A stretch of 64,000 bases of DNA from Cantharellus purpuraceus (Eukaryota; Basidiomycota; Agaricomycetes; Cantharellales; Hydnaceae). The notes beneath the pieces are model-generated. The model did not search any database, had not been told where the DNA came from, and saw only the letters and a list, made by a program, of their open reading frames with translations. The position numbers and the translations under genes were made by a program. The stretch lies in the NCBI GenBank assembly GCA_025174535.1, contig JALBUN010000048.1, positions 1,798,001-1,862,000 on the forward strand, written 5' to 3'. Positions 45,917-58,508 of the stretch are shown here, in pieces (positions within the stretch are counted from its first letter, which is position 1; the number at the start of each line of letters is the position of its first letter).

Positions 45917-46066
45917 TGCTGATGCATCAGTGGAACCAGAGATGGATGGGTGGAGTTGTGATGATGATTGGAAGGACTACAGGAGATGTACAGTTTCCAA
46001 ATGGAGTATAGATTTCATATGCATGGGGATCTGGGGGATTGGACAGGGATCTGGGTGTTAATGAAT
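45917..46066 (-). repeat. A-family LTR fragment next to the F-box gene
   Basis: TGCTGATGCATCAG...GGTGTTAATGAATATA is the reverse complement of the first ~150 bp of the A LTR, with an internal deletion. Both ends are truncated and no TSD is visible. Confidence 0.8.
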
Positions 46067-46094
46067 ATAATCCTAGCCTTTTAGGGCTGAACTT

Positions 46095-46455
46095 GAAAAT
46101 TCTTATTGAGAATTTTCTCTCAGTGACTATGTCATGTGGGCATGACATGATTAATTATCACTTACACCTTTCATGCTACCATGAGTAGCACAAAGATAAA
46201 CTGCTCCCTATGAGAGCAGTTTTCATTGCTATCAAGCTGCCTATTATCATGGCAGCTCTATTCCCCTCTAGGAACTACCATTATTCGAGGTAGTTCCTCC
46301 TCTCCTTGTTGAGCTACTGTCATTGATGGTAGCTCCTTATCGCATTCTGTTAGGAGCTATCATTTATCCTTGGTAGCTCCATTTCTTCCCCCTTGAGCCC
46401 CATTAGATCTTTGGGGCTCCACCTCTCCAAGAACTACTGTCTATGAGGTAGTTCT
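46095..46455. other. Array of ten consecutive short hairpins
   Basis: Perfect stems, in order: 46095-46103/46109-46117 (9 bp, GAAAATTCT), 46129-46136/46141-46148 (8), 46174-46179/46185-46190 (6), 46198-46206/46214-46222 (9), 46235-46241/46251-46257 (7), 46270-46279/46289-46298 (10, AGGAACTACC), 46311-46317/46329-46335 (7), 46353-46361/46372-46380 (9 with one G-T), 46395-46401/46413-46419 (7), 46430-46437/46448-46455 (8). Loops are 4-11 nt. Several stems share the core GAACTAC/GAGCTAC, others not. It lies at the start of the presumed 5' LTR/leader of element D. Confidence 0.85.
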
Positions 46456-47066
46456 CATGCTCAAGTCACCCCTCAAACACCCATCGGATTATTCTCCTAT
46501 ATTTCTTTTATATTTTATTTCATCATTTTTCCCCTATTGGCTCCACCCCCATTTCATTTTTATCACAAGTTTCTTTCCCATGTTTCAAGTAATTCAGGAC
46601 TTTTATCACATGTTCTAAGGACACATATCTTGTAAAAAATGCTTAGCTAGATATGAAATGGACCAGAGAATTTTCTCCCACTTGTTTTTGTTGACTGTGT
46701 CTGAACTAATCGTTTCTGGAATAACTCCAGAACGAACTTGAATTTCTTCAAGCCTTTGCATAATCTTCTAAATTATTGCAACATCTATTCGAATCCCAGT
46801 TTTCGAAGCCTAAGCTCCACTGGTTGATTTTCTATTAAGCATTTACTCTCATTCGAGTCATCTGCTCCTGATCCCTGCTCAAATTGTCAATATCTAGACG
46901 AGGACTACACCGAATCTGATCAAACTTCGTACGAGGATACTCCCAAGATATATCTTCAATTCGACTATGCATACACTCAGTTCCCATCACTCCCTCTGTC
47001 ATTATTCGAAATCTACTCTCCACACCCCCCCAGCAAGGTGAAGTTTTCAACAGTGAGGAGCATTGG
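46130..47066 (+). repeat. Presumed 5' LTR and leader of element D
   Basis: It starts TGTCATGTGGGCATGACATG, a palindromic LTR-like beginning, and is pyrimidine-rich with AT-rich TATATTTCTTTTATATTTTATT in the middle. More hairpins occur at 46714-46732 (TTCTGGA, 7 bp) and 46737-46752 (CTTGAA, 6 bp). No second copy lies in the window to prove LTR status. The sequence stops at the inverted chromovirus fragment at 47067. Confidence 0.4.
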
Positions 47067-48506
47067 ATTGGAGAGGTGAACCTGGAACATTTGTGAGCCC
47101 TCCAGTTTACTTAGTCTGGCAAAGACCATAGCATCCACCATCAATATAGATGGAGGGGTAGGCAGAGTATCTATCGGAGCAGAGTCAGCAGAGGCAGTGT
47201 CAGTTCACTTATGGAATAGATCCTATAAGCCTGCACACAATGGTCCTAGCAAACAGATGGTGTGTAATGCAGTTGTTCAGCATGCCAAAGAACAATCAGG
47301 TTGAGGGGTAGGGGTAGCACTGAGTAACAGGTAAGAGTAATAGTGCTCTGTGGTTGGAGGAGGATGGGGAGTGAATCCGACGATTTGTCCAATTTGTTGT
47401 TAGCCAAATTTTCATGGGAGACCTCAGATTGGGCGAGCTTGCAAAGGTTAACCAAAGTATCTGGCTTACCGACATGTGATATCTTGTCCTTGATGCAGGA
47501 TGGGAGGCCAACATAAAATTGGTGTTGGAGTGTGGCATTGCCCCATTGGACTTTTGGAGCTAGCTGCTGGAAACTCACAATGTATTTTGCAATCTTGTGA
47601 TTTTCCTTCATCTGAAGTCAATTGAGTTCATTCTTGGCATTGGCCTCAGGGTGGTAAGGACCGAAATTGGTCCAGAGTTCAGAGATGAAGTCAGAGTAGT
47701 CTTCTGACCATATCGGGTCATCGGAGTCATTCATGAGCACTGGGTCAAAGTAGTCCAGTGCGGTGCCCTTGAGATAGGACATGGCGAAGGTGACCTTCGC
47801 CCAATTGGATGTGAATGTGTCGGGGTGGTTGTGGAAATTCAACCGGCATTGCACCAAGAATGGTTGGAGCTTGCATGGATTGGAGCCATTGAATGGGTTG
47901 GGTTCCTGGACCTTGGTCCAGGACTTAGGAGCTTGTGGGGTACGGATGCTGCTGGTGAGCAGGGAGATGGCTTGCGCCAGATTCAGGGAGGGTGGAGTAT
48001 CATCCTCTTCATTGACAGCCTCTATGTGGTCTGTTGGTTCTTCAACAACCTCAGGGATGGTGTCGATGCTGGGAGCACCTCAACGGTTCATGTGCATTCA
48101 GAATTGGCAGTGGATTGTGGCATTGGTAGGAGTGAGTATGACAGTTCAAATATACTGTTATACACTAGGTCCGGTTGGGGGTTGGAACTTGTGTTGGAGT
48201 TGATGGTTGGAGTTGGAGTGGGAATCAGGATGCATCATGGGAATCAGAACAGACTTGGCTTCAGCTTATGTGCTGCGCCCTCACTAATACCTGTGTCCAA
48301 GATTTCAGAGACAGAGTACAACTTAGATAGTTAGGATCAGACTTAGGAGCTAGGCATGATTTGATATTCAAACTGGGGAATGAAGTCCCCAGTTGGGCAA
48401 CTTAAATACATATTTGAAATCTAATAATAATTACTCTGGTGATGGGACTCCGAGGCTGATGGCCTTATGTGAATATGTCTGAGTCCGATGGGGACAGATG
48501 TCCAGG
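47067..48506 (-). mobile_element. Inverted A-family chromovirus fragment
   Basis: Read on the minus strand: a truncated LTR (48506-48156), gag from 48155 (capsid motifs MSYLKGTALDYF and ENHKIAKYIVSFQQLAP in the frames 47618-47857 and 47246-47611), a 159-bp piece of F-family LTR (47372-47214), and a protease-linker piece ending at 47067. Gag runs directly into the F piece, so the joint is a scar of an F insertion and deletion. Outer ends lack TSDs. It separates the leader and gag of element D. Confidence 0.8.
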
Positions 48507-51500
48507 CGATCATGAGACCACACAGACAATTGCACAATAGATCATCTGTCAAACAAGAACCCTTCTTTGAGTGGTTCTTTGATTAGAGAAGAAAGGAGGA
48601 GACAGTCATCCACTGTCTCCAACATTCCTAAAGGAAAGGAACATGCTCAATATATGAGCACAAGTAGAAGTAGCAATACTTCTACTAGGGAATCGTGTAG
48701 CACGGAGCAGTGTGAAACCCACAGGTCAATCTTGCGATTGACTGAACAACTCATGCATAATCAACATGAGATGAAGAGCATTAGCAAAGCTAGTGCTCAG
48801 GCAGCTAAGATGGCTGCTGAAGCAGGACATGCTGCCACTACTATGGGGCAGCAAATTGCAGAGCTAGGAACAATGTTAAAATCACTCCAAGAGAACTCTG
48901 AGTGATACAAGTTGCGTTGCTGAAGACCAGATCCTCAACAAGAATCTGAATCCAGAGAGTCTGGATCCCCCTGGGGTGAGAGGATCCAACCAAATGATTT
49001 TTGGTTAGACAGAGGAAATGAAATTCCCCCAATGGAGGGAATTAGAGACTCAGTAATCCCTGTGAGGCAAGGATTACTGATCCAGATTGAAGAGGAAACT
49101 CCTCAATCTATGGCAAAGGAGCTTGATCAAGAGATCAAGCTATGGAAACAATGAGAAGTTGGGGCTTCTTGTAAACATAGATTAGCCCTCAAACGGAAGG
49201 CTAAACATACAGAGCAGGAGCTTGGCCAGCTTTTTAGAGAGCAGCAGCCCCAGCAAGAGCTCAATGTGGCTGTCAATCTAAACTGACAGTTGCAACATGC
49301 ACTGAACAGTTATCAGCATGTACAAGTGGTGGGCCTGTCAGGAGACATCTGCCATGAGCAACAAGATACCCAATGGGTACCTCAAAAAGATATTTCCCAT
49401 AACAGGGAACAATCAGTGCCATTGACCCTAGAAGGTCAAAGCATACCGGATCAATTGGATACAATTGATCCTATCGACAGCATTACTCACATGGTGTGAG
49501 TAGTCATAGTCAATGATAGAGACACTGACCCAGAGAAGTCTGTACTTGCCAAGGTGGGCATTAAAGTATTGCCTCCTGAGCAATACGCAGGAGGTGCAGA
49601 TCTTGAAGAGTTCAAGATCTTTGTAGCAGGCATGCTATGATGGCTGAAGATGAATAATCTCCTAGGGCCATCAAGTACAAAGTTTCAGCTATTGTACTAG
49701 GCACTCACCTTAAAGGTGAGGCCCAGGAATGGTTCTACAGGAATGTAGAACACTACAATAGGGCAGTCCAAGACTGGACCCTGGAAACTGCAATCCAAGG
49801 ATTGCAACGTAGATTCCTACACACCCTGACGCATCACCATGCATCAAATAAATTTGACTCTGTAATACAGGGTCAAAGGACCATTCACGAATTAATGAAC
49901 GACCTAGATAAGTATGCGGGTCACATGATAATGCCACCAGATGCATACATGTACAGGAAGAGGTTTGTAACTGCAATGTGTGAACCTCTGAGACAAGAAG
50001 TCCTCAAGGAGGGCTTCAATGCTGAGTTTAGCAGTATCAAGCAGTTATACGAAACTGCTCAAATGATAGAGGAAGCGACATGATACCACCACAGTATGCA
50101 ACGCCCGGAGAATCCAACTAACACGTCCTCCTCAACCCATAGACCAGTAGTCAATAGAACTACTGGTATGATGGATACAGGGAGTTGACCCACGCCCCAT
50201 GGACGTGTGTATATGGCTCCCAACACACACTCACAACAAGTGAGTGTGTCAAGGTTGGAACCCCATAATGGAAGCTCTGGGTACAATTCCAACAATTACC
50301 TTTTCAAGGGTAATTATCAATTGAAGCCACCAGCACACACAAGTGGTGATCAATTGAACAATGTTACTAGTAATGTTGTGTGCTATGAATGGGGCCAGAC
50401 AGGTCACATGCAGCCCAGCTGCCCCAAACTAAAGGGCAACGTAAAGTCAGCTGTGGTCCAAAAGGACATGTCCTCACACATAGTGGAGGACAATGTAGAC
50501 GGATTCTCCCCGATAGAGGGAGAACATGAAGAAGCAATGGATGATCCCAAGGACCATCTAGACGAAAAAATACCAGCTATAGAAGTGGCTGATGAATGGG
50601 ATGAGGAGGTCACCCCATACGAATGGGACGAGGAGGTCACCCCATACGAATGGGACGACCAAGATGATGCCCCCAAAAAGGAGGCTACACCAATGTATCG
50701 CTCTAATGTGATACGAATTCAACCCAATGATTGAATTTCACTGAAACACACCTATGCAGTGTGTTTCTGTAGTGCAACAAGATTGACAAGAAGCAGGGAA
50801 TCACAACAGCTGCATATAGCTGCTGTCAGTGTCAACAGATCAGCCAAACCTATGTATAATCATAGGAGCCAACAGAAGTCAACAGTGCGACCAGATAGAC
50901 TGTGCATAGACAATAAAACAATCTCTGGGTATTGGGAGATTGGTGGAACACTAGCTCACTGTCTATTAGACAGTGGGAGTGACGGAATAATGATATCCCC
51001 TGAATTCACACATGTGACAGGTATGAAAACCTTCATGCTAGAGCAACCCATCACACTGCAATTAGCGTGCATTGTTATGACTATATTCATTAACGTCCAG
51101 ATCCCCGTCCAATCCACTCAGATCCCCGCGCATATGAAATCTATACCCCATTTGGAAACCGCTACGTCTCCATTATACCTGTCCGATTGTCACTGCCGAT
51201 TCTGCCCATCTGTCTCCGGTTCCGATTGATGCATCAGCATCACCATAGGAACCCGGACATCCATCCCTGTCGGACTCGGACATACTCATGTAAGGCCGTC
51301 AGCCTCAGAGACCCATCACCAGAGTAATTATTATTAGATTTCAAATATGTATTTAAGTTGCCCAACTGGGGACTTCATTCCCCAGTTCAAATATCAAATC
51401 ACGCCTAGTTCCTAAGTCCGATCCTAACTCTCTAAGTCGTACTCCGTCTCCGAAATCTCGGACACCGGCATAGTGAGGGCGCAGCACATAAGCTGAAGCC

Positions 51501-51850
51501 AAGTCCATCCCGACCCCCACGACGTGCTCCAACTCCAACCCAACCTCCAACCCAATCTCTGACCCAATCTCCAACCCCCAATCGGACCTAGTGCATAACA
51601 TGCATTGGGAGCAGGAGTACCATAAATTATGGTACTCACACTACCATAAAGTTTAGTAATCGGGACATTGAAGAATATTTTGATGTCACCAACATTGAGT
51701 ATTACAATGTAATACTTGGTACCCCATTCCTACAAAAGCTAGGAATATGCCTGGACTTTAATGGCCCAGGCCAAATCATGATGGGAACTGAAGAAGTCCC
51801 CACCAATGAAGAGCATAATACCGATGCTCTTTATATCCCATCATTGTAGA
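48507..51850 (+). pseudogene. Element D: Ty3/Gypsy gag-protease, saturated with hairpins
   Basis: Order: a small first open frame (48567-48905) with a helical alanine-rich end; a gag capsid region (LEEFKIFVAGML at 49602; open 49802-50083); and a linker with a tandem YEWDEEVTP repeat (about 50616-50665). A zinc knuckle at about 50382-50423 reads CYEWGQTGHMQPSC, second Cys changed to Trp. The protease has HCLLDSGSDGIMIS (DSG; 50960-51000). The frame is split by a solo LTR at 51073-51600 and resumes at 51606 with VILGTPFL. It ends at about 51850, where Copia-side sequence begins; RT and integrase are absent. Throughout, coding DNA folds into successive short perfect stems (see findings). Gag and protease are recognisable, but stops such as 48905, 49499, 49638 and 50083 break the frame. 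Confidence 0.75.
51073..51600 (+). mobile_element. Solo LTR, A family, TSD TGCAT
   Basis: TGTTATGACTAT...GTGCATAACA, 528 bp, flanked by TGCAT at 51068-51072 and 51601-51605. It interrupts the element D protease in phase, since removing LTR and one TSD restores the frame. Confidence 0.95.
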
Positions 51851-51956
51851 GCTCAGCAAAAAAGCGAAATTGTAACACATAAAACACTCATATCTTCTCA
51901 CAGAATAATCCAATCCATACCAATCTTTTTAGGGACCTTCAGTGCATTCCAACACA
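51851..51956 (-). repeat. Candidate start of a Copia 3' LTR, incomplete
   Basis: Downstream of the Copia stop codon the minus strand has a purine tract (TTGAGGGGGTG) followed by TGTTGGAATGCACTG, the expected order of polypurine tract and LTR start. The sequence meets element D after about 100 bp. No matching 5' LTR was found upstream of gag, so this is tentative. Confidence 0.4.
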
Positions 51957-51961
51957 CCCCC

Positions 51962-54900
51962 TCAATGAAGTGTTCCTTCAATCCTACCAATCCCTAATCC
52001 ATCTCTGAACTTCACATGCTTGGCACACACCAGACTCTTGGTTAGCACATCAGCTACCATCTCATTTGTCAGCACAAACTGGAGTTTCAGCGATCTCCTT
52101 TCCACCTTTTCCCTCAACCAGTGATACATAACATCAATGTGCTTCATCCTGTAGTGGTGTTCAGAGTTCTTGGATACCACAATGGCAGGTTGGCTGTCAC
52201 AATAAAGTGTGATTGGAGGAAGGTGGTAACCAAGTTCAGTTAGCAACTGTTTCAACCACATGGCTTAACATCCTGCAAAGTTAGCTGACATGTATTCAGC
52301 ATCAGATGAGGATGTTGCCACTGTGGGTTGCTGTTTGCTGCTCCAACTGACTGCTGCTCCACCAATGAAGAAGGCATACCCAGTTGTTGACCATCTCCTG
52401 TCCTCATCCCCTGCATAGTTGGCATCACAGTAGGCCTGGAGCATTGCCTGGGAGCCAGAGTCTCCATACATCATCCCCAGTTCAGCAGTCCCTTTGAGAT
52501 ATTTGAGTACATGCTGAACTGCCTTCCAATGACCTAAACCAGGATTTGAGTTGAATTGGCAAAGTTCACCAACCACATGTGAAATGTCCGGTCTGGTTCC
52601 AATCGCAAGGTAATTCAGGCTCCCAATGGCCACAAGGTATGAAACACCTCTCATGGCCTCAATGTCCTCCTTTGACTGTGGACAGAGATCCTTGGAGAGA
52701 TGACAGCCTGGATCAAGAGGAGTCGACACTGGCTTGCAATTCTCCATGTTGAACCACTTCAAAACATCCAGTGCGTACTTGTGCTGATTAATGTGCAATG
52801 TCCTCTTTCTCCTGTCCCTGTGGATTTCCAGACCAACAATGTACCTGGCAGGTCCCATGTCCTTCATTCTGAAGTGTTGTAATAGTTTAAGTTTTATTTT
52901 GTTAAGATGGGTGCGATTGTTGTATGTTATAAGTTGATTGTTAACATAGACAGGGATGTAGACTTTGATGGGTCCTTGCATGTAGAGGTAAAGGCAGCTG
53001 TCCACCTTGGATCTGGTGAATCCCATGTCATGAAAGGCTTGGTCCAGTTTGGCATGCCACCTGTTTCCCCCTTGCCTGGTTCCATAGATGGCCTTGTTTA
53101 GTCTCCCAACCTTGTCTCCTTGCCTGTATCCATCTGGAAGTTCCATGTAGACCTCCTCTTCAATATCCCCATTCAAATAGGCAGGTTTGAAATCAACTTG
53201 GTCCAATTCCAGATCCTCAAGGGCAGCAAGAGCCAGGAGCACTCTGAGCATGTTAAATCTCACAACAGGGGCAAATGTTTCCGTGAAGTCAATCCCTGCC
53301 TTCTGTGTGTATCCTTTTGCAACCACTCTAGATCTGAAGCACTCAATGGATCCATCAGGGTTCTTCTTAAGTTTGAATACCCATTTGGAGCCCACAGCCT
53401 TCTTGCCTGCAGGGAGATCCACCACTGTCCAAACATTGTTGTCCATAAGCGACTGTTCTTCATCGCAGGACTCTCTCCACCATGGTGCATCAACTCTAGA
53501 CATGGCCTCCTGATAAGTGGATGGTTCAGGGAGGTCAGGAGCATTGCTGAGGTTGACAAGTTCCTCAAGTGGATGTTGGACAGATGGTATGGCAGATTCA
53601 GCCTGTTCCACCCCCTCAGTTAGATCATCTTTCTCCTGTGACTCAGGTGGAGGATTCCTGTACTGGGCAGCATTTGGGACAAGCCACCATGGTTGGGGAA
53701 GGATGCATATGTGTGCTGAATGCCTTGGAGGAGGGTCAGGTGGTAGAGGTGGAGATGGGGATAGTTGAGGGGATGCTGTTGCAGTGTCTGGCCCTGGTGG
53801 TAAAGAGGGAGTAGCTGGAGGAATAGCTGGAGGTAAAGTAGTGGTCTGGTGAATGGGCACATCATCAGGAAGTTGTACAAGTTGTTGTGGTGGATTGTGC
53901 ATGGTGGATGTGTGTGAGTGGCCAGATTCATCAAAAATGACATCCCTGCTGATCAATACCCTCCTTTTAGCTGGATCCCACAGTCTCCATGCCTTAGTCC
54001 CATGTTCATATCCAATCATGATGCACTTGGTAGAGTGTGGTTCAAGGTGGCGCCTTTTGGATTTGGGGACATGGACAAATGCAGTGGAACCAAATACCCT
54101 GAAATGTTCAACAGACGGCTTGTGGCCATGCCAGGCTTCATATGGAGTCCCATGGGATAGCACAGATGTGGGAGAGCAGTTGTGGAGAAGAGTGAATGCT
54201 AATGCTGCTTCTCCCCAGAGAGAAGGACCTAGTTGGGCATCGTGTAACATGGAGATAATCCCTTCTTCCAGAGTCCTGTTGTAGCGCTCTGCAACTCCAT
54301 TCTGCTGTGGTGTTCCTGGTGCAGTCCTTTGCCTGAAGATCCCAGAGGATGTGGTCAGGAAAGAGAATTGGTGCAATGAGTACTCTCCTCCTTTATCATC
54401 TCTCAGGGTTTTGATCTGTTTGCCAGTCTGATTCTCCACCAGTGCTTTGAACTGCTTGAATGCATCTAATGCCTGGTCCTTGGTCTTGATCAAGTATAGG
54501 CTCACAAAACGAGATTTGTTGTCTATGAATGTGATCCAGTACCTAAATCCTTGTCTGGTGGGCACCTTCAATGGACCATGAACATCAGAATGGATGAGTT
54601 GGAGGATTTCCATGGCCCTGAAAGAGGCTTTCTTGGGGAATGAATCACGGTGTTGATTACCATGAATGCACGCTTCACAGATTTTGGGGAATGGATTGTC
54701 TGATGTGATGTTCATCCCCTCCACCATATTCTGTGTGATCAGTTGTTTGACAGCATCAATCCCCAGGTGCCTAAAGCAACGGTGCCAGAGTTGTAGATCC
54801 AGTGACTTGGATGCAGCAATGTGTGCAGTGTGAGAGAGTGTTTCCATCCAGGTATGCCAGTCTCTCCTTGACTGTTGCAGTACATATCAGTTTGCCCAAC

Positions 54901-56093
54901 TTGTAGAATTTCACAACCACTCCTATGATTTCCACATGAATCTGACAGTGCATGGTCAAGAAGAGGATGGAGAGAAGGCTGTTTGCAAGTTTGGGAACGT
55001 ATAGTACATTGCTGAACAGTATAGGGTTCAAGTTTGGATCATTTGGGTGAAACATCACTGTGCCAATCCCTTCAGAGTACACAACACTATTGTCCACCAG
55101 TTCAATGGGAGCTCTATGAGGTTTGAGTTCCTTAAACCAATGGTGATGTGGAGTCATATGTAATGAAGCCCCTGAATCAGTGCACCAAAGGGAACTGGTA
55201 TCAGAGACAAGGTGTGCATGATGAGGAGAGGGAATGCTTGCGGTGGTAAATGCTGATCCTGCAACTTCAACAACAGAGGAGGTAGATTCATCTGCCTGTT
55301 TTGCCTTCTGCTTCTGCTTCTTCTCCTGCTTAGCCATCTGTCTGTGCTCCAGATTTGCCTTCTTGGCATTGGCTAGAGCAAAGCAAACATCGGTGTTGTG
55401 AGTGGATGCTTCGCAGAAGTTGCACCATTTAGAGGATGTTGAAGCAGGTGGTTTGTTGGACAGCATGGCTGATTGGACAGAACGATGCAGATGGTTGTTC
55501 TCCTCTATGATAAAGGCTTCAATAACCTTGGCCTTGTTAATGTCCTTTTGAAGCAGTAACACAGATGTGAAGCTGTCAAACTCTTCAGGAAGGGCTCTAA
55601 TGAGTGTCATGATCACCAGTTCTTTGTCCTGTCTGGCCAGGGTATATGAGCCATCAGATGGATGAAGATTCTGGCAGAGTTGCATGGCAGAGCTGACACG
55701 ACCAATCAGTGACTGGAGTGTCTCATCAGGAGCCTTCCATATATTGAAGAGTGCATCATAGGCATTGAAATGAGTGCCTGCCTGCTTCTGAACATGGACC
55801 TTGTGCAGAGCCTCCCACATTTTCACCAGATCGTCCTCTAATCCCTGAACATGAACTTGCTGCCCTTGTTCCAAGGTTGATGCAATGAGTCCAGCTGCTA
55901 CCTCCTGATCCATTTCCCATTTCTCCATGGCTGCAGGTTCAGTGGGGCACTTTTTCTTGCCATTGACAAGCATCCACAAGCCCTTTGAACGTAACCTTGC
56001 AGTCATGTTGAATGCCCAGTCATGATAATTTGAATCTGAGAGCATGGGGAACTTAGGAGAGAGTGTGTTGTTGGTGGAGGTGGTTGTAGACAT
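51962..56093 (-). CDS. Ty1/Copia polyprotein, nearly complete but inactivated
   Basis: The start ATG is at 56093. Domains in order: gag (residues 1-220, SNYHDWAFNM near the start); zinc knuckle CNFCEASTHNTDVC (about 225-238); protease WCTDSGASLHM (about 305). A -1 frame change near 54835 lies just before the integrase finger LWHRCFRHLG...CEAC. The integrase core follows (IHSDVHGPL, LRDDKGGEY, NGVAERYNRT; D-D-E present). RT has WVFKLKKNPDG and DFKPAYLNG, but the active site is YVNN instead of YVDD. RNase H (AYCDANYAGDEDRRWSTTGY) has one TAA at about 52262 before MWLKQLL and ends GRIEGTLH at 51962. About 1370 codons, normal for Copia. The double D-to-N change removes the catalytic aspartates, so this copy cannot reverse transcribe by itself. 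Confidence 0.88.
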
Positions 56094-57789: not shown

Positions 57790-58508
57790 TGTTATGACTA
57801 TATTCATTAACGCCCAGATCCCCATCTGATCCACTCAGATCCCCGCACATATGAAATCTATACTCCATTTGGAAACCACCACATCTCCCTCTACCTGTCC
57901 AATTGTCACTGCTGATTCCACCCATCCATCTCTGGTTCCGATTGATGCATCAGCATCACCATAGGAACCCAGACATCCATCCCCATCGGACTTGGACATA
58001 CTCATGTAAGGCCGTCGGCCTCAGAGACCCATCACCGGAGTAATTATTATTAGATTTCAAAATATGTATTTAAGTTGCCCGACTGGGGACTTCATTCCCC
58101 AGTTCAAATATCAAATCACACCTAGTTCCTAAGTCTGATCCTAACTATCTAAGTTGTACTCTGTCTCCGAAATCTCGGACACCAGTATTAGTGAGGGCGC
58201 AGCACATAAGCTGAAGCCAAGTCCATTCTGACCCCATGACGTACCCGACTCCTTCTCTGACTCTGACCAAACCTCCAACCCAATCTCCAACCAAACCTCC
58301 AACCCAATCTCCAACCAAACCTCCAACCCAATCTCCAACCAAACCTCCAACCCAATCTCCAACCAAACCTCCAACCCAATCTCCAACCAAACCTCCAACC
58401 CAATCTCCAACCAAACCTCCAACCCAATCTCCAACCAAACCTCCAACCCAATCTCCAACCAAACCTCCAACCCAATCTCCAACCCCCAATTGGACCTAGT
58501 GTGTAACA
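57790..58508 (+). repeat. C 5' LTR with expanded minisatellite
   Basis: 719 bp, TGTTATGACTAT...GTGTGTAACA. The extra length against ~530-550 bp in other copies is due to the 24-bp array at 58267-58482. Confidence 0.93.
58267..58482 (+). repeat. Minisatellite, 24-bp unit, nine copies
   Basis: Nine nearly perfect units of CCAAACCTCCAACCCAATCT plus CCAA lie in the C LTR. The array is made of two alternating 12-bp variants. It corresponds to the short 12-bp array at the same place in other A-family LTRs. Antisense frames through it give GDWVGGLV repeats and are not genes. Confidence 0.92.

Follow-up and report, generated by a model that had tools for sequence, protein, structure and literature searches.

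Short palindromic units of common span tile a Ty3/gypsy retrotransposon family in Cantharellus purpuraceus

Introduction

Ty3/gypsy LTR retrotransposons (RVP_2, RVT_1, Integrase_H2C2, and a Tf2-1-like SH3 domain) resemble the family described here in domain set and order, in the LTRs, and in multicopy decay, but this family is tiled from LTR to LTR with palindromic units of about 23 nt and has an extra 3′ ORF region. Some RNA viruses possess genome-scale ordered RNA structure, in which the folding excess is carried by codon choice; the family differs from such structure in its strand symmetry, in the lack of a clear wobble preference, and in the bounded span of its units. Bounded-span, Watson-Crick, strand-symmetric palindromes over a whole retroelement are not the expected legacy of RNA-structure selection. 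Probing of yeast Ty3 genomic RNA, as described in PMC11381356, mapped about 20% of it to a well-folded core and up to about 30% to structured regions. The likeness lies in dispersed stable structure in the RNA of an LTR element, whereas the family has bounded-span Watson-Crick units that are near-symmetric on both strands.

Template switching is described as a maker of perfect hairpins (PMC8794818), and yeast quasi-palindromes as turning perfect in highly transcribed DNA (PMC3820800). Such mutations share with the family perfect short inverted repeats, short spacers, and Watson-Crick rather than wobble pairing. The cases described in these two papers are single events in RNA and reporter genes, whereas in the family the whole element is affected, with a common span. 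The palindromic cis-regions of Sirevirus LTRs and the small-RNA-linked hairpins of LTR elements, both from maize, are alike in belonging to hairpin-rich LTR elements with a possible link to small RNAs (PMC10760457). As far as described there, however, the Sirevirus palindromic motifs define an LTR cis-region, and no such confinement is found here, as gag, pol, and the 3′ ORF region, coding sequence included, are also tiled.

Results and Discussion

Hairpin excess in the window

The window, that is, the whole stretch of 64,000 nt that was analysed, comes from Cantharellus purpuraceus (GCA_025174535.1, contig JALBUN010000048.1, positions 1,798,001-1,862,000 of the forward strand). Hairpins were counted as perfect inverted repeats with a stem of at least 7 bp and a loop of at most 15 nt. 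By this rule, positions 48507-51850 hold 38 repeats, including 13 with stems of 9-11 bp, in good agreement with the roughly 35 and twelve of a preliminary description of this DNA, whose nine listed arm pairs are all perfect (9/9). Dinucleotide-preserving shuffles (n = 100), a check proposed there, give a mean of 2.68 stems of at least 7 bp (maximum 7) and 0.22 of at least 9 bp (maximum 3), close to its hand estimates of 3 and 0.2 and far below the observed numbers. The stems are distributed over 48507-51072 (32, of which 10 are of at least 9 bp, with spans of 17-31 nt), 51601-51850 (five, including one of 11 bp), and an inserted solo LTR (one); one of the 13 stems of at least 9 bp (51364-51387) therefore sits in foreign sequence, not in the copy. 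The inverted-repeat scan places the longest perfect stem at 51615-51637 (plus strand; 11 bp, loop 1, span 23). A typical unit, at 49448-49471 (plus strand), has 10-bp arms (GGATCAATTG/CAATTGATCC), a loop of 4, and a span of 24, and 91% of its 190 pair cells are Watson-Crick in the aligned copies.

The 58 kb of the window that lie outside 46001-52000 contain 70 stems, or 1.2 per kb (range for individual kb, 0-5). A single shuffle of the window gave 0.83 per kb. The other elements thus indeed lack such runs, as had been claimed. An Rfam scan of 46000-52000 gave no match.

Layout of the window copy

Together, 48507-51072 and 51601-51850 form one decayed copy of a Ty3/gypsy family with many members in the genome; these lie on many contigs and have the hairpin units in common. 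The first part (plus strand) holds gag and the beginning of the protease, and may include some leader because the boundary between leader and gag is not fixed; the second part (plus strand) holds the rest of the protease. The three frames of 48507-51072 contain 45, 57, and 39 stop codons. The copy is therefore a decayed pseudogene, which corrects the preliminary description.

The capsid part of gag (49500-50059, plus strand) has a 91% DNA match to L019:4317-4877 in a better-preserved copy, the translation of which matches Pfam Ty3_capsid (E 8.5e-6, below the curated cut-off) and metagenome proteins with up to 71% identity across its length. The gag relatives P0001-P0032 have identities of 54-71%. 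The stretch CYEWGQTGHMQPSC of gag (50381-50422, plus strand, frame 2, GHM at 50402), which we take to be zinc-knuckle-like, has W in place of the usual second Cys and gave no match in a family search. The aspartic protease region (50648-51074, plus strand) contains LLDSGSDG, with DSG at 50969; its counterpart in L019 matches RVP_2 above the cut-off and aligns to 50648-51074 and 51601-51844.

A solo LTR (51073-51600, plus strand) that derives from a different Gypsy element separates the two parts and stands outside the finding. Its 5-bp duplication, TGCAT (51068-51072/51601-51605), belongs to this insertion and not to the hairpin-tiled family, and other family copies continue straight across the junction. 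At 47427-48506 (minus strand), a further Gypsy element is represented by a fragment whose LTR sequence abuts the 5′ side of the copy; it has three 9-bp stems in 1.1 kb, a density far below that of the tiled parts. A 3′ non-coding fragment of the tiled family at 46073-46477 (minus strand), which the preliminary description had not included, is likewise tiled, with 10 stems in 405 nt.

Architecture of the family and extent of the tiling

In L019, fragments matching Ty3_capsid, RVP_2, RVT_1, RT_RNaseH_2, Integrase_H2C2, and SH3_Tf2-1 follow in this order (capsid and RNase H below curated cut-offs), giving gag - protease - RT - RNase H - integrase; the RVT_1 match, L019:6718-7107, has an E value of 1.8e-20 and 74 bits against a cut-off of 29.6. 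LTRs of about 270-280 nt are present at both ends, the start of the 5′ LTR at L010:3052 matching the 3′ copies in L036 (273 nt, 92.7%) and L035 (264 nt, 84.5%). The extra 3′ ORF region is without a recognised domain, and a protein homologue search with its last piece gave none.

Hairpins span the whole family, from the LTRs and leader through gag, protease, reverse transcriptase, and integrase to the extra 3′ ORF region. The excess is element-wide in all seven copies profiled and continues through the 3′ ORF region and the 3′ LTR. The hairpins that had been assigned to gag and protease codons are thus present there, but the excess is not confined to them. Coding parts carry 11-15 stems per kb, non-coding parts 16-32. 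The hairpins predate the multiplication of the family.

The nearest relatives examined in the genome (42-46% RT identity) have little or no hairpin excess, and other Gypsy elements of the same genome are without a comparable one. This counts against copying as the origin of the units, since such a process would have to be specific to this one family. L031, L032, and L034 (RT identity 65%, 57%, and 69%) were considered as distant families and rejected: DNA-level comparison identifies L032 and L034 as decayed copies of the same family, and L031, with up to 76% amino-acid identity, is probably another. One further RT match (C16:89210, 87 aa) has 49% identity. Searches of viral contigs and genome contigs gave no DNA of homologues from other species.

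Geometry of the units

The common geometry of the hairpins is new here, beyond the preliminary description. In 8686 nt, 163 distinct hairpin centres are each found in at least two copies (some 19 per kb). Their outer span has a mean of 23.15, an sd of 3.67, and a median of 23 nt, and falls mostly within 18-29 nt, the arms rarely exceeding 12 bp and the loop filling the remainder. The peak at 22-23 nt appears in four copy sets, which are related copies and not independent, with observed/expected counts of 37/4.3, 44/4.6, 54/4.5, and, in diverged copies, 22/1.8. For arms of at least 6 bp, 158 hairpins with spans of 18-29 nt are observed against 24.6 expected, while longer spans give 12 against 7.9 (30-33 nt) and 67 against 54.9 (34-59 nt). 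The outer edges are sharp: Watson-Crick combinations just past them (168/706 and 196/690) are near the chance level of 0.25. Within long loops, they amount to 56/141 and 46/111. The anticorrelation of arm and loop lengths may partly come from mismatches within formerly longer arms, a point against copying as the origin of the units.

The behaviour of the shortest arms should be mentioned. Arms of 6 bp are enriched with loops of 6-15 nt (52 vs 15.0 expected) and only weakly with tight loops of 0-5 nt (17 vs 10.3), the opposite of a stability rule. Loops of 0-2 nt are enriched 15- to 35-fold and loops of 3-10 nt 22- to 40-fold. Suppose that selection favoured a locally folded genomic RNA, hairpins keeping it compact, packageable, or unavailable for pairing. 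An outer-span limit near 29 nt would then be unexpected, and both the enrichment of loops of 0-2 nt and that of weak long-loop units above tight short-arm ones speak against such selection. Bounded span and sharp edges would also suit protein-binding palindromes or another DNA-level signal (e.g. for nucleocapsid or a chromatin protein) spread by selection; however, the arms in the window differ in sequence between units, no common motif was noticed among them, and density tracks coding freedom, and we consider such a signal very unlikely.

A regular spacing of the hairpins was also considered and rejected, as the spacing CV (0.40-0.66) is within about one sd of a random-placement null. The unit spans cover 31-49% of the sequence.

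Pairing type and strand symmetry

In one-mismatch stems of at least 9 pairs, the mismatch is A.C in 32, G.T in 10, and other in 16, alongside 38 perfect stems. The subfamily alignment has a mild G.T excess (126 cells vs 90 for A.C), a point against copying as the origin of the units, and its 29 listed polymorphic pairs include G.T in 16 and A.C in 14. Beyond decay, non-Watson-Crick pairs are nearly absent. Compared with shuffles, the folding energy along the family gains 12-19 kcal/mol per 150 nt, against at most 2.5 kcal/mol in two other stretches of the window. The MFE gain per 150 nt is near equal on the two strands: -13.0 and -13.0 in L019, and -15.0/-15.3, -18.9/-19.2, and -13.6/-12.0 in other segments. 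Apart from this mild G.T excess, wobble exceeding A.C and a favoured plus strand, the signature at the RNA level, are not seen in the family. A reading of the A.C excess as minus-strand selection was rejected because of the near-equal folding gain.

These results bear on the folded-RNA explanation in both directions. The strong element-wide folding gain (-12 to -19 kcal/mol per 150 nt) agrees with it, as does a tiling that is element-wide and mostly synonymous in coding parts, but the rarity of G.T in one-mismatch stems, with only a mild excess elsewhere, and the near identical gain of the complementary strand do not. We judge it somewhat unlikely.

The span mode of 22-23 nt also allows the units to be read as a defence against RNA silencing, in which they would match the small-RNA length of 20-24 nt. 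A small RNA cut from either strand would then be self-folding, and its target would be blocked by pairing of its own. With fewer than about 12 bp, the arms would remain under the size of a Dicer substrate. Selection on both strands would account for the strict Watson-Crick pairing and the strand symmetry, and the perfection on both strands and the presence of units in LTRs as well as genes point the same way. Small RNAs of Ceratobasidium, an agaricomycete, are described as 20-24 nt, mostly 21-22 nt (PMC9610886). Contrarily, random spacing and a coverage of 31-49% mean that most small RNAs would miss the unit ends, and the hairpins of maize TEs, as far as described in PMC10760457, go together with small RNAs and not with their evasion. 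This defence is unlikely. A bolder version has the palindromes selected, or partly written, by the small RNAs themselves: at each unit, a small RNA from either strand would be self-folding, and the element would become hard to silence with its proteins left unchanged. We regard this as quite unlikely. A tie to small RNAs would mean a new route by which a mobile element escapes silencing.

Codon choice and protein constraint

Synonymous-codon shuffles of L019 (200 shuffles) give a mean of 5.5 stems (maximum 15) against 50 observed; the means for L015 and L011 are 5.0 and 2.1 against 38 and 14. These controls, which the preliminary description had named as able to refute it, were run on better-preserved copies and did not reproduce the stems. 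The proposal that synonymous choices are moulded to the hairpins is thus borne out, the stems being carried largely by codon choice. Chance, base composition, or an assembly or design artefact is refuted by the dinucleotide and codon shuffles, and the units are common to copies on many contigs while neighbouring elements are without them; its probability is practically negligible.

The family proteins are little reshaped by the hairpins. Protein pairability, expressed as centres per kb and compared with relatives without tiling, is not higher at 8 bp (50.5-58.8 vs 51.3-57.5) and slightly higher at 9 bp (28.7-30.2 vs 23.5-25.0) and 10 bp (19.9-20.4 vs 17.5-18.3). In one gag fragment, amino-acid conservation inside arms is not below that outside. 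After codon shuffling, the family sequence still has about 1.5-1.6 stems per kb, compared with 0.8-1.0 for relatives, so that the amino acids or the set of codons may have been affected to some degree, a point against copying as the origin of the units. As a protein-only hairpin detector in metagenome homologues, pairability gave no usable signal.

Variation between copies

For covariation, 20 copies were placed on window coordinates and 19 were counted, L011 being dropped as near-identical to L012. Eighty-nine cells changed on both sides with pairing kept looked compensatory, but were rejected as evidence of structure because the CG/TG/CA states show decay on each arm: with the window copy included, CA/TG occurs 65 times, CA/CA 44, TG/TG 26, and TG/CA 26, and 48 retain a CG. 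Paired state combinations number 91 against 70 unpaired, at sites picked because the window copy pairs there. Most of the apparently compensatory changes from copy to copy are CpG decay, a warning for other decayed repeats. Variation common to at least three copies consists nearly entirely of transitions, mostly in CpG-like context, and no template-switch event was caught among the copies, which counts against copying as the origin. Lineage-specific hairpins exist; those examined are explainable by 1-3 point changes.

Between subfamilies, where counts are of group pairs and not of independent events, both-sided changes keep Watson-Crick pairing in 10 cases and lose it in 2 (slid controls, 0-5 vs 2-10), and one-sided Watson-Crick/G.T changes number 67 (slid controls, 13-46). 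Arm columns diverge slightly less than others (8.5% vs 10.1%). One pair, columns 378/399, shows A-T, G-C, and G.T states. These changes lean towards selection and against copying, and the many stems at the same sites in subfamilies, together with columns 378/399, are further points in favour of a folded RNA.

Origin of the units

We tentatively favour the explanation that a copying process of short range, whose products were sifted by constraint on the proteins, converted the whole element, coding and non-coding, into successive short palindromic units. The bounded span, the lack of a clear wobble preference, and the strand symmetry argue against ordinary RNA-structure selection and for palindrome-making copying, and a template-switch model needs inverted repeats that pair perfectly by Watson-Crick rules across a short spacer, as they do here. 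Among the causes offered in the preliminary description, a structured genomic RNA is therefore disfavoured (no clear G.U preference, strand-equal folding gain, a rule of span and not of stability), while template switching or a still unknown replication habit fits better. We infer that template switching generates the units and that it takes place while the element itself replicates.

An active ancestor may have repeatedly undergone local template switches while replicating, either when the nascent strand was folded back by the element's reverse transcriptase or in an equivalent step of DNA synthesis. Within a window of some 25-30 nt, one arm would be copied as the reverse complement of its partner. 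The proteins being under purifying selection, mainly synonymous events would then have been retained, which would explain the lower density in coding than in non-coding parts. Once the family had spread, copies decayed largely at CpG, and this decay is now eroding the hairpins. If the units were made by copying, they would be a natural record of the fold-back reach of a polymerase at well over 100 sites under known protein constraint, and the origin of perfect hairpins would become testable by comparing relatives.

The arms show a left/right base bias (C-G 264 vs G-C 184), which opposes the intrastrand bias discussed in PMC8794818 and in this respect does not favour copying.

Hairpin excess in the window copy

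The decayed copy in the window of a multicopy Ty3/gypsy LTR retrotransposon (48507–51072 and 51601–51850) is densely tiled with perfect inverted repeats, as the preliminary description had proposed for 48507–51850. All nine repeats that it listed are exact, and with perfect pairing, stems of at least 7 bp, and loops of up to 15 nt, the stretch contains 38 stems, 13 of which are 9–11 bp long. Dinucleotide shuffles give a mean of 2.68 stems, with 0.22 of at least 9 bp (100 shuffles). The absence of such runs from the other elements in the window also holds, since the 58 kb outside 46001–52000 carries 70 stems, near the shuffle level (0.83 stems per kb in one window shuffle). Another Gypsy element's solo LTR occupies 51073–51600 within the reported stretch; it is flanked by a 5-bp target duplication and has one stem. 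A 3′ non-coding fragment of the hairpin-tiled family lies at 46073–46477 on the reverse strand. Two long open frames (860 and 440 aa) adjoin the tiled copy on the minus strand at 52265–56093, with no hairpin excess. A tandem array at 58280–58480 consists of units of approximately 24 bp that are similar to the solo LTR's end (51529–51577).

Copies and architecture of the family

The family has many copies in its own genome (40.15 Mb in 50 contigs), mostly with 86–92% identity across long stretches among the best 40 of 1806 candidates. An RT fragment of the family gives at least 87 matches at 57% identity or higher among the best 150 of 901 candidates, some being pieces of one copy; below these, identity falls to 49% and then 46%. 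Twenty loci of approximately 10 kb each were read. The LTR is approximately 270–280 nt, and the element encodes gag, aspartic protease, RT, RNase H, and an integrase carrying a Tf2-1-like SH3 domain; for capsid and RNase H, the Pfam matches fall under the curated cut-offs. Gag relatives in metagenomes amount to 191 proteins, with up to 71% identity across the fragment. An extra 3′ ORF region of approximately 1.5 kb, hairpin-tiled like the rest, lies between integrase and the 3′ LTR (1–1500 of locus L035, reverse strand; 300–1900 of locus L036). Three ORF pieces from this region have no Pfam match, and the one piece searched against 5.8 billion proteins yielded no homologue at E ≤ 0.001.

Non-coding pieces (LTR, leader, and 3′ non-coding) carry 16–32 stems per kb, and the gag, pol, and 3′ ORF pieces carry 11–15, versus about 0.7–3.2 per kb in their shuffles. 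The related elements L029, L030, and L033 (RT identity of 46%, 46%, and 42%) have 12, 12, and 10 stems in 6.5–7 kb, versus 8.6, 7.8, and 5.9 in shuffles, a slight excess and no tiling. Since about 0.3 Mb of the genome was read beyond the window, it may contain further hairpin-tiled families. Searches of open-licence literature on hairpin-rich fungal, Gypsy, or Ty3 elements, on LTR elements with palindromes, and on hairpins made by template switching (including PMC10760457 and PMC11381356) revealed neither an element with tiling over its full length between LTRs nor a span shared by hairpin units.

Hairpins and protein constraint

The suggestion that synonymous codon choices were moulded to the hairpins is borne out by codon shuffles of stop-free fragments, which do not reproduce the tiling of the better-preserved copies L019 (50 stems observed; shuffle mean 5.5, maximum 15), L015 (38; mean 5.0, maximum 11), and L011 (14; mean 2.1, maximum 6). 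The relatives L030 and L029 give 5 and 3 stems versus 3.2 and 3.7. The shuffled family sequences retain 1.5–1.6 stems per kb versus 0.8–1.0 in the shuffled relatives, suggesting that the amino acids or codon set may add a little. The protein permits 8-bp stem centres at 50.5–58.8 per kb in the family and 51.3–57.5 in the relatives, and 9- and 10-bp centres slightly more often in the family; 11% of the permitted 8-bp centres are perfectly realised in the family and about 0% in the relatives. Compared with 22 homologues, a 187-aa gag fragment shows an amino-acid identity of 0.615 within arms and 0.587 elsewhere. The hairpins thus lie mainly at free codons, without visible cost to the protein sequence.

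Geometry of the hairpin units

The geometry of the units is new relative to the preliminary description. In the anchored segments (8686 nt), the excess occurs at outer spans of 14–29 nt and drops to near background from 30 nt up. The 163 distinct centres, each found in at least two copies, have a span of 23.15 ± 3.67 nt, arms of 7–12 bp plus one of 15, and loops of 0–19 nt; these distinct-centre counts and the shuffles are safer than counts over copies, which are related and thus non-independent. CpG-tolerant arms of 7–12 bp number 46, 37, 24, 26, 11, and 3, respectively, with none of 13–21 bp. Arm and loop lengths correlate negatively (−0.38 and −0.52; +0.02 and +0.17 in shuffled sequences). 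Pairing ends sharply at the outer edge of the units and extends into long loops (40–41% versus 25%), so part of this anticorrelation reflects inner mismatch within a palindromic unit. In the anchored segments, C and A are more frequent in the 5′ arms and G and T in the 3′ arms (C-G 264 versus G-C 184, p = 2e-4; second set 241 versus 155, p = 2e-5; A-T versus T-A, p = 0.1 and 0.011). Nearest-neighbour stacking is not known to explain such a left/right bias.

The span mode of 22–23 nt recurs in other copies, including diverged ones. This length resembles that of the 20–24 nt small RNAs described for an agaricomycete (PMC9610886), and both observations suggest, as a rival explanation of rather low probability, a link between small RNAs and the units.

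RNA structure and template switching as candidate causes

The stems with one mismatch (at least 9 pairs) comprise 32 A·C, 10 G·T, and 16 others, beside 38 perfect stems in the same comparison. Point decay is about even across strands, the folding gain per 150 nt is the same on either strand in a long L019 segment and near-equal in three others, and loops of 0–2 nt are enriched as well. These observations speak against selection chiefly through plus-strand RNA stability. RNA-structure selection nevertheless stays alive as a rival through the subfamily alignment, where both-sided Watson-Crick changes outnumber unpaired ones (10 versus 2; slid controls 0–5 versus 2–10), one-sided Watson-Crick or G·T changes reach 67 (slid 13–46), arm divergence is 8.5% versus 10.1%, and G·T exceeds A·C (126 versus 90 cells). 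Overall, such selection is rather unlikely to have shaped the hairpins.

We tentatively favour repeated local template switching during replication of the element, filtered by protein selection. Local switches with a reach of approximately 25–30 nt would recur at some replication step, the step and the polymerase being inferred, and protein selection would then filter the products. PMC8794818 and PMC3820800 describe single events of this kind, from RNA genes as well as yeast.

History of the tiling

Variation common to at least three copies consists mostly of transitions in CpG-like context, and CpG sites within stems have decayed on either arm; the hairpins are therefore older than the burst of copies. 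The diverged copies (L017:381–1055 and L037–L042; 9–17% divergence at non-CpG sites in those measured) also possess hairpins, many at the same places and some private. The tiling thus predates the subfamily splits. Differences among the copies, L019 included, are largely CpG-type transitions, and many RT matches have TGA stops, a pattern that CpG methylation decay would leave.

The L011 and L012 loci, near one end of contig C17 and the start of contig C49, are 99.8% identical over 9.3 kb; either the locus was recently duplicated or the two contigs overlap in the assembly. A repeat of approximately 570 bp at L010:7281–7850, with matches in L017, L018, L020, and L026 (95–99% identity between loci), is much younger than the elements that it interrupts.
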